NCBI GenBank assembly: GCA_037349315.1
Contig: JBAIAC010000010.1
Span: 32,280,001-32,344,000, forward strand
Source of the DNA: Chelydra serpentina
Taxonomy: Eukaryota > Chordata > Testudines > Chelydridae
Reading direction: 5' to 3'
Length of the DNA: 64,000 bases
The translations under genes were made by a program, and so were the position numbers. How positions within the stretch are numbered: position 1 is the first letter of the stretch; each line of letters opens with the position of its first letter. Shown here one piece after another: positions 7,370 through 55,959 of this stretch. Under the pieces are notes generated by a model. The model worked only from the letters and a program-made list of their open reading frames with translations. It had not been told where the DNA came from and did not search any database.

Positions 7370-8600
7370 GTAAAACATTCTTTTTTGATTTGGTAGCATT
7401 TGTATATCTATTTTGCATAACTATAAGTGACTATATTAAGTGCAAGGCAGTGGAGAGCCAGGGCTGTTTTCTGCAGGGGAAGAGGAGTCTGAAGATCAAT
7501 TCACTTGCCTCCTTGAGCTTGCCAGCCAACCAGGCTATCTCAAGCACACAAGGTGGCAAACTGATTGGTTCCCACACAGCAGTGGAGTTGGGACAAACTG
7601 GAAGTGAGAAAGGAGCCAGCACAGTTGCAGAGGAATGGTGTGTGAGAGTCTGTGGAGATGTCCTTTTTGAAGAAAATGCCTAGAGAAGCTAGCCTGGATG
7701 GTAAAAATGGCAATTTATCACTTAAATAAAAAACGACCAAAATGAAAAACAAAGAACCCAGATAGACTTGAACTATCAAAAGATGAAACCTGACTCAGAG
7801 GCTGAGTCAACATTGAGTTTTCCTTAACATATCTCACCCCTGCACTAGCCTCTTGGAGCTCCACCAATGGTAGCAACAGTGGAGTTTTAGGACAGACAAA
7901 ACATTGGTATCTTTACCATCCTGACATCTGATCCTGCCCAGAGCCTGTCTAGACAAGAGGGTAGAAAAATGCTGCATGCACATTAGCTATGCTAGAGTTA
8001 CCACTGGTAGTAAGCTACTGGCAGGAAAAATTAAGAAAAAGCTCTCTGTAGAGCCCAGGAATTACTTCTTGCCTAGTGACAGTCAGGCTATCTCCCTTAA
8101 ATCTGGATCAGACTTCTAACGCTTGGCCATTCCCCTTTCTACCAATAGCCATTTGCTTCAGTCACAGAGAGAAAAATGTGCATTACCTCTACCAGATGCA
8201 CTAAAGTTTGTCCATTTCTGAAGAATTTTCCCCAACCTTTCCCATGACTGGGTAAAGACTAAGGCTTAATTGAAAGAGTAAACTGGAAAGAAATAATATG
8301 GGAAGCTGATAATGACTCCTATATTTAGGTTGTCTAATACTTGCTATCATAAAAGATTCTTGCCAGGTTTTAGATTTTACTTATTTATTTTATAGGAATT
8401 CCAACACCTCCATTATTTGCAGCAGGCCTTTGAAATTTGGCAGGAAAAAAGCCCCGGCAGAAGAGAAGTCCTTTTCTCTGTCCCATGAAATTCCATTCAG
8501 GTTTGGATGAAATATAAACTTTTGAAAATTGTCATTTCCCTTCCGCTATTTGCATCAGCAGCAAAATTTTAGCAGCCTGCCAAAATAAATTAACGTAAAC
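7370..8600. other. No gene recognised
   Basis: Non-coding in appearance, with short frames only. It ends at the target site of the Penelope-like element. Confidence 0.45.
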
Positions 8601-8753
8601 ATTCTAAGGAGCGGTTTCAGAGTAGCAGCCGCATTAGTCTGTGTCAGCAAAAAGAACAGGAGTACTTGTGGCACCTTAGAGACTAACAAATTTATTTCAA
8701 CATAAGCTTTTGTGGGCTACAGCTCATTTCATCAGATGCATAGAATGGAACAC

Positions 8754-8996
8754 AAAGTAAGCAGATATTTATACAAATCTAACATCAGGAATCATAACAT
8801 TCAAAAACCAATAGGAGAACACTTCAACCTCTCTAATCACCCAGTGACAGACTTAAAGGTGGCAATTTTGCAACAGAAAAGCTTCAAAAACAGACTCCAA
8901 CGAGAAGCTGTTGAACTTGAATTAATATGCAAACTAGATACCATTAACTTAGGTTTGAACAGAGACTGGGAGTGGCTCGGTCATTACGTTAATTGA
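8754..8996 (+). pseudogene. C-terminal relic of Penelope-like GIY-YIG endonuclease domain
   Basis: The frame carries IGEHFNLSNHPVTDLKVAIL, then a basic stretch, REAVELELICKLDT and LNLGLNRD-like residues before a stop at 8996. These are the conserved C-terminal blocks of the GIY-YIG endonuclease that ends the Penelope-like ORF (an EHFN..H motif, a catalytic-side glutamate in the E-x-E helix, and a GLN-D ending). The N-terminal GIY/YIG strands and the whole reverse transcriptase are missing. The nominal ATG at 8712 lies in the inverted terminal repeat and is accidental, so about 80 codons are authentic. The product would be non-functional. Confidence 0.7.
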
Positions 8997-9209
8997 ATCT
9001 ATTTCCCCTAGTTAACTATCCTCACTCACACCTTTGTGTCAACTGTCCGAAATGGGCCATCTTGATTATCACTTCAAAAGTTTTTTTTCCCCTGCTGATA
9101 TAGTTCCTCTTAATTAATTAGCCTCTTAGAGTTTGTATAGGTACTTCCACCTTTTCATGTTTCTCTGAATGTATAAATATCTGCTTACTGTGTGTTCCAT
9201 TCCATGCAT

Positions 9210-9253
9210 CTGATGAAGTGAGCTGTAGCCCACGAAAGCTTATGCTGAAATAA
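9210..9253 (+). ncRNA. Hammerhead-ribozyme-like motif in Penelope terminal repeat (probably inactive)
   Basis: CTGATGA (9210-9216), a stem-II-like hairpin (GTGAGC/TGTA/GCCCAC, one mismatch) and GAAA (9234-9237) appear in the order and spacing of a hammerhead core. They are followed by AGCTTATGCT, able to form a 3-bp stem III. Hammerhead motifs with very short stem III are known in Penelope-like terminal repeats. Against activity, the residue at the cleavage position after GCT is G, not A/C/U, and no good stem I is visible. The inverted copy (core at 8729-8735, minus strand) keeps CTGATGA but has CAAAA in place of CGAAA. Confidence 0.45.
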
Positions 9254-9309
9254 ATTTGTTAGTCTCTAAGGTGCTACAAGTAATCCTGTTCTTTATTCTA
9301 AGGAGCCAG

Positions 9310-10025
9310 ACCCATGTCACTGCTAAGGCGGCAGCAGCAGCAGGCACTATGCAGGGAATCCCAGGATCAGGCAGACTGGAAGGAAGGAAGAGAGAGCTGG
9401 CTGGGCATCTTCCCACAACTTCTCACCCTAGATCCAGCACAAAACCCTAATGGCCCAATCTGCTCCTTCTGGGGGCACTACAGGGAAAAGAGTTCCCACC
9501 AGCTCCTATGATGGGGGACTGGGAGGACAGGGAGAACAAGAAGCCATGATCCCAGCATAAACCTCCCAGAATCAGCAGATGGTCCCAGTGTCCCCTTTTG
9601 GATCAAAGCTCACAGCCCTCTCTTGCTGCCAAGTAATATACTTACTCCTGAAGCTCAAGTTATAGCAGTGTTGAAGGTTCAGGGATTCAAACCCTACTGA
9701 TGATGCAACATGTGAAATACCTGTCTTCTGAGAAAGTAGTTAGCAGTACTTAAACATAAAAATGCACTTACCCAGGTTTTTCTTATCATACTGGAGGTAA
9801 ATTATATTACTTCAATTTGGAGATGAGTCAAGCAGTAGTAGCTTAGCAGTTTATTATACAAAACAACATGAACACTTGAAATAATCTGTAATACAGGATT
9901 ATTATTATTATTTTTAAATGTACTTCAGTATTTGAAGAGGGAAGTTTCATCAGAAAAATGTATTTGGAAAGCTACACAATCAGGATGTCTGATTATTACT
10001 TAATATTTATATTACAACAGTGTTA
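9310..10025. other. No gene recognised
   Basis: Short frames only; no mobile-element termini are evident. Confidence 0.45.
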
Positions 10026-45544: not shown

Positions 45545-46240
45545 CTAAATAAATATATATTGAAAAGGCCTTTGTGTCTATCTGTGGTTCTGTTACAAGC
45601 CTTAAATAAAATGGAGTGGTGGATGTTAAAGTGACCCCACTGTTACCCGCACACTCTACGGCACCCACCTTTACCCAGTTCCATGAGCTCAAGGCATAAC
45701 CCGGTTTATTTAAGTACCCACTCTTACCCTGAGCCCTGGGAACTGGGTATACATTTCTGCGTGTTTGCAGGAACTTTTACAGTGAAAGAGCTATACAGTT
45801 ATATCCTTAACCTTAATCACCAAGCAGAATGCACACGCTAAGCATACAATGCTATGCTCACCAATCCTGATCAAACAGGTGGACTTCCCCTGTTGGCCAT
45901 GCAAGGTCAGTCTCGTCTAGGTTCTGGTTGCTGCACGTGACGGTTGTGCACAGGATTCTAGCAGCTCTGCTCTTGGGCTATGTTGTTACCATATTTGCCC
46001 GTTACTTTGGGGTATGCTCATTTATTAGGGTTATTCTTCTGTGGGGCGGGGTTCTTTAATTCTATCAATGTACTGCTTGTGTCACTTGTGTTTTCATATG
46101 GAGCTCTACTTCTCCCTTCTGCAAGTGCCCTCCCAGTAGAGCTATCCTGCAGGACCTAGTTTCCCCAGGGCTGGGTTCCTCCAGTCGCAGAACCAGATGA
46201 ACACACACACACACACACACATTAACAGAGCAAGTCTGAG
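45545..46240. other. Repeat-like flank of minisatellite, unassigned
   Basis: No coding features. It may belong with 46600-48250 to one long retroelement, but I found no termini, primer-binding site or polypurine tract. Confidence 0.25.
46201..46221. repeat. Microsatellite (AC)n
   Basis: About ten AC units. Confidence 0.95.
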
Positions 46241-46600
46241 TGGACTGGGTCAAACAGCCCTCTTAAGCTGACCCCTTATATGTCCCTGGTCTCAGTGAGC
46301 TGGGTCAATCAGCACTCTCAAGCTGTCACCCTTATATGCCCCTGGGCTCAATAGGCTGGGCCAAGCAGTACTTCCAAGCTGCCATCCTTATATGCCACAG
46401 GTACCGCACCGGAATAGAGTAAGCCTGAGCAGACTGGGTTGAACAGCACTTCCAGGCTGCCACCCTTCTATGCCCCTGGACTCAGCATACTGGGTCAAGC
46501 AGCACTTTCAAGCTGCCACCTGTATATGCCCCTGGACTCAGTAGTCTGGGTTGAGCAGCACTTCCAAGCTGCCACCCTCATATGTCACAGGGGTTCAGCT
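46229..46600 (+). repeat. Minisatellite with 56-bp units in a 189-bp higher-order repeat
   Basis: Six units begin CTGGG at 46245, 46300, 46356, 46434, 46490 and 46546 (55-56 bp each, core CAAGCTGCCACCCTTATATG). Units 1-3 and 4-6 form two triplets, each led by a GAGYAAGYCTGAG phrase and ended by ATATGYCACAGG. The second triplet starts 189 bp after the first. Confidence 0.85.
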
Positions 46601-52521: not shown

Positions 52522-53336
52522 AAGCTTGAAAGACATATTTGGACTTTGACAGAAAAGATCAGCAAAATCACCAATTCTTGTTTAGAACATGACTTACAAA
52601 ATTATGTTATAACTTTTCTTACTACTTTCTCAATAAATAAACCAATTGCCCTTCTTCCAAAATTACACAAGTGTTACAGAAATAACTAGTTTACATATTT
52701 AGATCCCAAGCTTAAAAAGATGTGCCTAACTTTGACAGTATTCCCATTAACTTCAATGGTAATACTGATGTGTTTAAAATTATGCATGTACTTCAGAGTT
52801 TGTGAGATTAGGGCCTTAGTTACCTAGGATTTTGTACCCTGGAATATTTGAAAACATAGTGGTCATATATAAAGACCCATTGTGCATCCTGATGTTTTCG
52901 TTACAGGAATGCAAGCTCTTCCCCAGTAAGTCTATGCATAGAGATCTATTGATTTTTTTTCTGCTTTGGTTAAAACAGTTACATATGAGGAAAAATTAAG
53001 AGTTATATGGATATAATAAGATGTGATAGCTGATTAATTCCTTCATCAAGTAGTTGCTGAACCAACAAGGGGGGATGCCATTTTAGATTTGGTTTTGGTG
53101 AGTAGTGAGGACCTCATTGAAGAAATGGTTATAGGGGACAACCTTGGCTCGAGTGATCATGAGCTAATTCAGTTCAAACTAAATGGAAGGATAAACAAAA
53201 ATAAATCTGAGACTAGGGTTTTTGATTTCAAAAGGGCTAACTTTAATAAATTAAGGAAATTAGTTAGGGAAGTGGATTGGACTAAAAAATTTATGGATCT
53301 AAAGGCGGAGGAGGCCTGGGATTATTTCAAGTTAAA

Positions 53337-53508
53337 GCGACAAAGGGTCCTGTGGCACCTTATAGACTAACAGAGGTATTGAAGCATAAGCTTTCGTGGG
53401 TCAATACCCACTTCTTCGGATGCATCCGAAGAAGTGGGTATTGACCCACGAAAGCTTATGCTTCAATACCTCTGTTAGTCTATAAGGTGCCACAGGACCC
53501 TTTGTCGC
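53337..53508. repeat. 172-bp perfect palindrome, no spacer
   Basis: Every base from 53337 to 53422 is complementary to its mirror base from 53508 back to 53423. The centre is ATGCAT (53420-53425). The arms include GTGGGTCAATACCCAC hairpins, so nested structures are possible. Confidence 0.95.
53426..53466 (+). ncRNA. Hammerhead-like motif relic in palindrome (core mutated)
   Basis: CCGAAGA (53426-53432), a perfect 6-bp stem-II-like hairpin GTGGGT/ATTG/ACCCAC, then GAAA (53450-53453) and AGCTTATGCT. In a hammerhead the first box should be CTGANGA; the T-to-C change at its second base predicts inactivity. The mirror image on the other strand has the same features. Confidence 0.35.
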
Positions 53509-55959
53509 TTCTGCAGATCCAGACTAACACGGCTACCCCTCTGATACTTTCAAGTTAAAGTTGCAGAAGCTATCAGAAGCCTGTATCCCAAGAAAGGGGA
53601 AACAATTCATAGGCAGGAGTTTTAGACCAAGCTGGATGAGCAAGCATCTCAGAGAGGTGATTAAGGAAAAACAGAAAGCATACAAGGAGTGGAAGATGGG
53701 AGGGATCAGCAAAGAAACCTACCTTATTGAGGTCAGAGCATGTAGGGATAAAGTGAGACAGGCTAAAAGTCATGTAGAATTGGACCTTGCAAAGGGAATT
53801 AAAACCAATAGTAAAAGGTTTTATAGCCATATAAATAGGAAGAAAACAATGAAAGAAGAAGTGGGACCACTAAACACTGAGGATGGAGTGGAGGTTAAGG
53901 ATAATCTAGGCATGGCCCATTATCTAAACAAATACTTTGCCTCAGTCTTTAATGAGGCTAATGTGGAGCTTAGGGATAGTGGCAGCATGACAAATGGGAA
54001 TAAGGATGTGGGGGTAGATATTACCATATCTGAGGTAGAAGCCAAACTCGAACAGCTTAATGGGAGTAAATCGGGCGGACCAGATAATCTTCATCCAAGA
54101 ATATTAAAGGAATTGGCACATGAAATTGCAAGCCCATTAGCACAAATTTTTAATGAATCTCTAAACTCAGGGGTTGTACCATTTGACTGGAGGATAGCTA
54201 ATATAGTTCCTATTTTTAAAAAGGGGGAAAAAAAGTGACCCGGGTAACTACATGCCTGTTAGTTTGACATCTGTAGTATGCAAGGTCTTGGAAAAAATTC
54301 TGAAGGAGAAAGTAGTTAAGGACCTTGAGGTCAATGGCAATTGGGACAAATTACAACATGGTTTTACAAAAAGTAGATCGTGCCAAACCAACCTGATCTC
54401 CTTCTTTGAGAAAGTAACAGATTTTTTAGATAAAGGAAACGCAGTGGATCTAATCTACCTTGATTTCAGTAAGGCATTTGATACAGTACCACATGAGGAA
54501 TTATTGGCTAAATTGGAAAAGATGGGGATCAATATGAAAATTGGGAGGTGGATAAGGAACTGGTTAAAGGGGAGACTACAGCGGGTCATACTGAAAGGTG
54601 AACTGTCAGGTTGGAGGGAGGTTACTAGTGGAGTTCCTCAAGGTTCAGTTCTGGGACCAATTTTATTTAATCTATTTATTACTGACCTCGGCACCAAAAG
54701 TGGGAGTGTGCTAATAAAGTTTGCAGATGACACAAAGTTGGGAGGTACTGCCAATTCAGAAAAGGATTGGGATATCATACAGGAAGATCTGGATGACCTT
54801 GTAAACTGGAGTAATAGTAATAGGATGACATTTAATAGTGAGAAGTGTAAGGTTATGCATTTAGGGATTAATAACAAGAATTTTAGTTATAAGCTGGGGA
54901 CACATCAGTTGGAAGTAACGGAAGAGGAGAAGGACCTCGGAGTCCTGGTTGATCATAGGATGACTATGAGTCGCCAATGTGATGTGGCTGTGAAAAAAGC
55001 TAATGCGGTCTTGGGATGCATTAGGTGAGGTATTTCTAGTAGAGATAAGGAGGTGTTAGTACCGTTATACAAGGCATTGGTGAGACCTCATTTGGAATAC
55101 TGTGTGCAGTTCTGGTCTCCCATGTTTAAGAAGGATGAATTCAAACTGGAACAAGTACAAAGAAGGGCCACTAGGATGATCCGAGGAATGGAAAACCTGT
55201 CGTATGAAAGGAGACTCAAGGAGCTTGGTTTGTTTAACTTAACCAAAAGAAGGCTGAGGGGAGATATGCTTGCTCTCTTTAAATATATCAGAGGGATAAA
55301 TACCAGGGAGGGAGAGGAATTATATCAGCTCAGTACCAATGTGGACACAAGAACAAATGGATATAAACTGGTCATCAGGAAGTTTAGACTTGAAATTAGA
55401 CAAAGGTTTCTAACCATCAGAGGAGTGAAGTTCTGGAACAGCCTTCCAAGGGAAGCAGTGGGGGCAAAAGACCTATCTGGCTTCAAGATTAAACTAGATA
55501 AGTTTATGGAGGGGATGGTTTGATGGGATAACATGATCTTAGTCAAAGGTCAATTAATTGCCATCAGTGGTAAATAGGACCAATGGTCAATGATGGGATG
55601 TTAGAAGTTACTACAGAGAACTTTTTCCTGGGTGTCTGGCTGGTGAGTCTTGCCCACATGCTCAGGGTTCAGCTGTTATTTGGGGTCAGGAAGGAATTTT
55701 CCTCCAGGGTAGATCGGCAGAGGCCCTGGAGGTTTTTCGCCTTCCTCTGCAGCATGGGGCACGGGTCATTTGTGGAGGGTTCTCTGCATCTTGAAGTCTT
55801 TAAACCATGATTTGAGGACTTCAATAGCTGAGACATAGGTGAGAGGATTATTCCAGGAGTGGGTGGGTGAGATTTTGTGGCCTGCATTGTGCAGGAGGTC
55901 AGACTAGATGATCATAATGGTCCCTTCTGACCTTAAAGTCTATAAGTCTATAATTTAGT

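Follow-up and report, generated by a model that had tools for sequence, protein, structure and literature searches.

How a perfect palindrome made of two retroelement ends comes into being at its insertion site is the question raised by positions 53325-53560 of the 64,000-nt stretch of Chelydra serpentina DNA analyzed here (hereafter the window). The answer that we put forward is that the palindrome is probably a non-autonomous Penelope-like product of two-ended target-primed reverse transcription.

The palindrome is an inverted repeat (53335-53422 / 53423-53510) of 88 nt per arm, 100% complementary and with a 0-nt spacer (BLAST against the minus strand, E 2e-89); inverted-repeat search and BLAST agree on the perfect, spacer-free structure reported by the first-pass annotation. 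The arm length of 86 nt given there is to be corrected to 88 nt, and the outermost bases overlap the left target duplication: the outermost pairing is formed by AAG on the left, within that duplication, and CTT on the right, within the right arm. A 13-bp direct repeat, TTTCAAGTTAAAG, lies at both edges of the insert (53325-53337 and 53548-53560) and confirms the target duplication claimed earlier. The insert proper (53338-53547, 210 bp) consists of two arms, the left one tail-less and the right one followed by a one-sided 37-nt tail (53511-53547), which is placed between the right arm and the right duplication and has no counterpart on the left. The earlier description of terminal-repeat sequence only, arranged head to head, was right about the content but not about the ends, which are unequal in that the tail is on the right arm only. 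The features are:

53325..53337, no strand: left target duplication TTTCAAGTTAAAG, a direct repeat
53338..53422, minus strand: tail-less arm, an inverted pseudo-LTR; its pairing continues into the duplication, taking in the final three bases as far as 53335
53419..53426, no strand: palindrome center GATGCATC, with the midpoint in self-complementary TGCA
53423..53510, plus strand: tailed arm, a pseudo-LTR in direct orientation, placed by the inverted-repeat pairing
53511..53547, plus strand: one-sided tail, 37 nt; the same tail is found at 8253 exact-pattern places in the genome
53548..53560, no strand: right target duplication TTTCAAGTTAAAG, a direct repeat

The coding content of the insert is nil, and it must have used an enzyme in trans or be an incomplete copy of a longer RNA. 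When the insert and one copy of the duplication were removed by script, the flanks gave a single 324-aa open frame across the joint, for which there was no Pfam match; the frame that follows it matches RVT_1 (1.5e-35). Because a frame reads across the joint and a reverse transcriptase frame comes after it, the target of the palindrome was a LINE-type element.

Related copies in the genome identify the family. Locus L048 encodes a 336-aa frame matching RVT_1 (8.5e-8) and locus L056 a frame matching GIY-YIG (4.2e-7), each upstream of the same pseudo-LTR and tail, and inverted pseudo-LTR arms are present in the window palindrome and in 27 of the 50 loci sampled by their tail. The linkage of reverse transcriptase and GIY-YIG frames in these relatives, the inverted pseudo-LTRs, the 37-nt tail at one end (optional and 30-40 nt long in Penelope-like elements), and target duplications of variable length assign the element to the Penelope-like elements, and the first-pass annotation of Penelope-like ends is supported. 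The hammerhead ribozyme motif is frequent, but not universal, in the pseudo-LTR of Penelope-like elements; no hammerhead match was found with Rfam at E up to 10 in 53200-53700 and 8550-9400. The Rfam matches in these segments were all below the gathering threshold, the best being to hairpin families that are fitted by the palindrome itself and the others chance-like. A foldback DNA transposon or MITE, with equal termini, a duplication of fixed length, and inheritance as a whole unit, was rejected on the basis of the unequal ends, the 10-18 bp duplications, and the varying junctions. Pattern scans for the pseudo-LTR in IMG/VR and GTDB contigs gave no matches.

The first-pass annotation had proposed a genome search for other head-to-head copies, and the result is that the structure is not a one-off: the 2.28-Gb genome has the strict center CACTTCNTCNGATGCATCNGANGAAGTG at 594 places (reversed control, 0), all selected for TGCA, such that the center of these palindromes is not independent evidence. 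A first genome search, with 20 nt of tail in the query, gave 1100 candidates, of which 40 were scored and all 40 were head-to-head, and a 28-nt tail pattern gave the 8253 places. Sequences were retrieved for 133 loci (247 kb). Forty-seven palindromes were selected by junction pattern alone, with the tail not in the query. The tail sample comprises 50 of the first 53 listed of the 8253 places, all on contig C1 and hence non-random, three clustered places having been skipped. From it was drawn a set of 27 two-arm insertions, whose arms lie close together; left out were L046, L056, and L120, the last with an ambiguous second arm. L046, which nearly duplicates L045 but is inverted, was excluded from the counts. 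The same insertion and flanks are present twice at L045 (C1:254271) and L046 (C1:272259), inverted and ~18 kb apart, with 2601 of 3028 positions in ungapped agreement, and the pair is either a local inverted duplication or an assembly duplication. For the haplotype comparison, 30 loci of divergent subfamilies were removed by eye and 77 copies kept, of which 60 were typed at all five sites; among 124 loci, L101 had no usable tailed arm. Junctions were compared in 36 of the 40 loci scored in the first search.

Exact target duplications of at least 9 bp flank 67 of 80 palindromes, compared with 0.7% of mismatched pairings, and the longest chance match among 491 mismatched pairings of the tail sample was 10 bp. 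Duplications of 10 bp or longer are present in 65 copies and measure 10-18 bp (mean 12.8). The duplications are 71% A+T, the nearby flanks 62%. The flanks of the same 65 copies, in which duplication edges were placed by longest exact match and are fuzzy, carry a dyad AC...GT, with C at -1 in 34, A at -2 in 39, G at +1 in 30, and T at +2 in 33 (P from 2e-8 to 2e-4), whereas the next bases are weak (T at -3, P 0.04; A at +3, P 0.06). That both strands show the same preference is as expected if a symmetric double cut leaves two 3' ends. Leaving L046 aside, the tail sample has 28 insertions flanked by duplications of 10 bp or longer, 24 with two arms and 4 with one; the left copy of the duplication in L052, L057, and L064 is not next to the arm but further out.

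Exactly one tail was found in 80 of 83 palindromes, two in none, and none in the remaining 3; for the loci selected by junction pattern only, the figures are 44 of 47, 0, and 3. The three tail-less calls comprise L094, in which a degraded tail can be recognized by eye, and L096 and L100, in which the arm is cut short beside other sequence. In both L096 and L100 the left arm adjoins similar-looking sequence, a repeat with GATCGATTGC, and the two were perhaps inserted in one repeat family. With L056 set aside, the second arm is without a tail in all 27 two-arm insertions drawn from the tail sample. In L056 an inverted tailed arm lies 617-751 nt upstream of the element's own tail, with no target duplication found, and it is a possible double-tailed insertion or else two insertions. 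Measured from the tail end, the outer end of the tail-less arm falls at 28-46 nt in 71 of 77 copies, most often at 35-37; as its starts cluster inside the tail end in this way, the two outer ends represent two defined places on the RNA. The view of the first-pass annotation that a defined step during target-primed reverse transcription was involved is supported.

A second Penelope-like insertion in the window, at 8601-9306, has inverted arms that are unequal:

8601..8612, no strand: left target duplication ATTCTAAGGAGC, 12 bp, by eye
8613..8775, minus strand: short tailed arm, inverted; 8651-8775 pairs with 9170-9294 at 94.4%
8776..9294, plus strand: long tail-less arm and ORF end; the frame 8706-8996 resembles the GIY-YIG frame of L056 by eye
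9295..9306, no strand: right target duplication ATTCTAAGGAGC, by eye

The tail is unique to the minus-strand arm and the ORF end (to 8996) to the other arm. With the short ORF piece of this insertion, GIY-YIG was not matched in Pfam, and a PDB search gave weak matches only. In the two-arm set, 15 of 27 insertions have a tail-less arm whose inward extent exceeds that of the tailed arm by more than 5 nt. Because each arm then holds bases that are absent from its partner, neither arm of these unequal insertions was copied from the other. The tailed arm is the longer in 7 of 27 and the two are about equal in 5 of 27, and these 12 insertions are compatible with fold-back copying as well. A tail-less cDNA that runs ahead of its partner on the same RNA was considered and set aside, as 15 longer tail-less arms against 7 longer tailed arms is a non-significant difference (P 0.13).

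Where the two arms meet, the sequence is variable. The canonical center GGATGCATCC is absent from 8 of the 36 compared loci, which had been chosen by overall similarity (in L027 by one substitution), and L025 and L028 have additional bases at the palindrome center; no unusual junction common to several unlinked copies was seen among the 36. Joints in the 27 two-arm insertions span from a 12-nt overlap to a 28-nt filler, and symmetric joints fall on self-complementary bases, TGCA in the canonical-center palindromes, TATA in L052, and AAATTT in L073. As the junction varies among near-identical copies, it is most likely that the palindrome was formed anew at every insertion, and we take a perfect palindrome to arise when both cDNAs stop at TGCA and pair there. 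The first-pass annotation had held that many copies with one and the same junction would reveal a mobile foldback subfamily; the copies are indeed many, but their junction is not constant.

The arms of a palindrome are also related by haplotype. Five-site haplotypes are identical between arms in 52 of 60 copies, compared with a mean of 12.7 and a maximum of 25 in 10,000 permutations. At site -104 the two classes are unmixed, 20 copies being G/G, 15 C/C, and a single one T/C, apparently through a private mutation. This sharing favors one RNA, or RNAs of one locus, as the source of both arms. It could reflect the activity of one subfamily at a time; however, the two site -104 classes, the only pair that could be compared, are similar in age (mean arm mismatch 0.9% versus 1.6%, P 0.45) and argue against this. 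Among A-family palindromes, 13 of 51 have 0 arm mismatches between positions -126 and -41 and 38 of 51 have 1 to 6. Young copies often have perfect arm pairs, and other copies keep their mismatches. The suggestion that such a palindrome must be recent or maintained by gene conversion is not supported, given the strict center at 594 places and the 38 palindromes that retain mismatches. Neither a recent origin nor gene conversion is needed, although in these data gene conversion between arms would give the same signal as a shared source.

From the target duplications, the one tail per copy, the two clustered outer ends, the unequal arms of which neither was copied from the other, the common haplotypes, and the varying junctions, all of which are read from the sequences themselves, we infer an enzyme, an order of steps, an annealing of cDNA ends, and a single RNA in the following way. 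The endonuclease of the element would cut both strands of an A+T-rich site with a stagger of ~13 bp and leave two 3' ends. Each 3' end would then prime cDNA synthesis on pseudo-LTR RNA, one at the end of the tail and the other ~37 nt further in. The one tail per copy and the common haplotype of the arms suggest that the template was either one RNA with both start sites used or sister RNAs from one source locus. Being of equal polarity relative to the RNA, the two cDNAs would meet head to head and be joined by microhomology or a short filler; since TGCA is self-complementary, two cDNAs that both stopped there would yield a perfect palindrome such as that at 53335-53510. Fill-in would generate the target duplication. 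Observations that weigh against this model are the possible double tail of L056, the 4 single-armed insertions, the 12 two-arm insertions compatible with fold-back copying, the disagreement of arms at individual sites and in L111, the lack of an Rfam hammerhead match, and the equal use of start sites on both strands in vitro.

An alternative is self-priming, in which one cDNA, or an antisense RNA, folds back on its self-complementary end and is copied into the second arm. It accounts for arms with common haplotypes and for palindromes centered on self-complementary bases, and it has been proposed for head-to-head Penelope structures of rotifers (PMC3846280). A fold-back copy should, however, include the tail, and two-tailed palindromes number 0 of 83; in addition, the 15 of 27 tail-less arms with further inner sequence contain bases missing from the tailed arm, which alone has the tail. 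Self-priming is already hard to hold for the unequal-arm copies, and for the palindrome we consider it unlikely. The 594 occurrences of the strict center and the 40 head-to-head loci out of 40 scored could be produced by a palindrome that is transcribed and mobile as an inverted-repeat unit, in the manner of a SINE or a foldback subfamily. That near-identical copies differ at the junction (8 of 36 without the canonical center, and the extra bases in L025 and L028) and that arm inequality grades continuously through the tail sample, whose joints run from 12 nt of overlap to 28 nt of filler, make mobility as a unit very unlikely.

Penelope copies are so common, with 8253 exact tails, that chance neighbors exist, and L056 may be one such case; two ordinary insertions, or an inversion after insertion, could in this way place two pseudo-LTRs head to head. 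Yet both arms lie within a single target duplication in 67 of 80 palindromes and in 24 of the 28 sampled insertions whose duplication measures 10 bp or more, and we regard this origin as highly improbable. The least probable of the explanations, to which we give hardly any credence, is an artifact of assembly or of long-read fold-back; fold-back read artifacts have been described (PMC12870357), but matching target duplications, one-sided tails, unequal arms, and an open frame across the target would all be unexpected in an artifact.

Two-ended target-primed reverse transcription invites comparison with the twin priming of L1. In L1 twin priming, the second primer lands internally and the two parts of the product are not mutual repeats. 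Both ends of the turtle insertions would instead use start sites of the element, so that the arms are repeats. A twin-primed LINE insertion, in which the inverted part is a different segment, was rejected for the palindrome, whose arms repeat each other over 88 nt. What would be shared with twin-primed inverted L1 (PMC2837659) is the use of two primers on one RNA, giving an inverted structure inside a target duplication.

The Penelope element of the rotifer Adineta vaga is among the closest published structural parallels, in that inverted pseudo-LTRs, one-sided tails, and palindromic joints are described, together with the self-priming proposal (PMC3846280). There too the pseudo-LTRs are head to head with an overlap or palindrome at the joint, a 31-bp tail is optional on one inverted pseudo-LTR, and target duplications are 8-10 bp (PMC3846280). 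According to the same text a full ORF copy usually follows in the rotifer, whereas the palindromes described here consist of two pseudo-LTR arms only, in hundreds of copies, and unlike the self-priming proposal the evidence here points to two primed ends (PMC3846280). Inverted pseudo-LTRs and 3' extensions are also noted in a curation guide (PMC8969392). PAc, a Penelope-like (Poseidon) element of Anolis carolinensis, resembles the turtle element in its GIY-YIG and reverse transcriptase frame and its A+T-rich target, and its protein cleaves and extends both target strands (PMC11167929). In vitro, two adjacent internal RNA start sites of PAc bound the tail, and start-site use is the same between strands (PMC11167929). 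The PAc work differs in being in vitro and with a hammerhead, which Rfam did not find here, and the study leaves the later integration steps open; the accessible portion of the report yielded no count of tails per insertion (PMC11167929). Because start-site use in vitro is equal between strands (PMC11167929), no known enzyme property would predict strictly one tail.

Inverted pseudo-LTRs, tails, and two-strand extension were already published. No count of tails amounting to a one-tail rule, and no reasoning from unequal arms, was found in the literature searched, which covered few subscription papers; both are apparently new. Many insertions in one genome provide a natural record of Penelope-like integration, and this record suggests that each end acts as a primer, with one start site used for the first and the other for the second, before end joining unites the cDNAs. 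The published self-priming and the published two-strand extension can be weighed against each other by means of this record, and simple bench predictions follow. A broader proposition, on which we are evenly divided, is that this Penelope-like lineage integrates as a rule by two-ended priming at two adjacent starts, leaving a single tail in each insertion, and that such priming is a general cause of inverted pseudo-LTRs: one RNA would serve both 3' ends of a symmetric double cut and two cDNAs would bridge the break, unlike the strand-after-strand scheme of LINEs.

Some palindromes have arms that disagree at individual sites. In L111 the arms differ at two diagnostic sites only and the tail-less arm has the haplotype of L113, and L111 looks like the product of two templates. 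At site -117, the base in GA[A/C/T]GAAG located ~10 nt from the palindrome center, the arms disagree in 10 of 61 copies (L010, L031, L065, L082, L098, L104, L109, L111, L119, and L129), close to the 12.3 expected under an independent draw within classes (P 0.12). The corresponding figures are 8 of 59 versus 11.5 at site -120 (P 0.11) and 16 of 64 versus 19.1 at site -40 (P 0.05), and both of these look like CpG sites. The arms may differ at -117 because the site is a mutation hotspot, because a second template was copied, or because the reverse transcriptase misread a modified base in the RNA. In L109 and L065, a rare variant near the outer end is common to both arms, yet the arms differ at -117. 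Elsewhere in the window, a 56-bp minisatellite in two blocks at 46234-46584 is unrelated to the palindrome.
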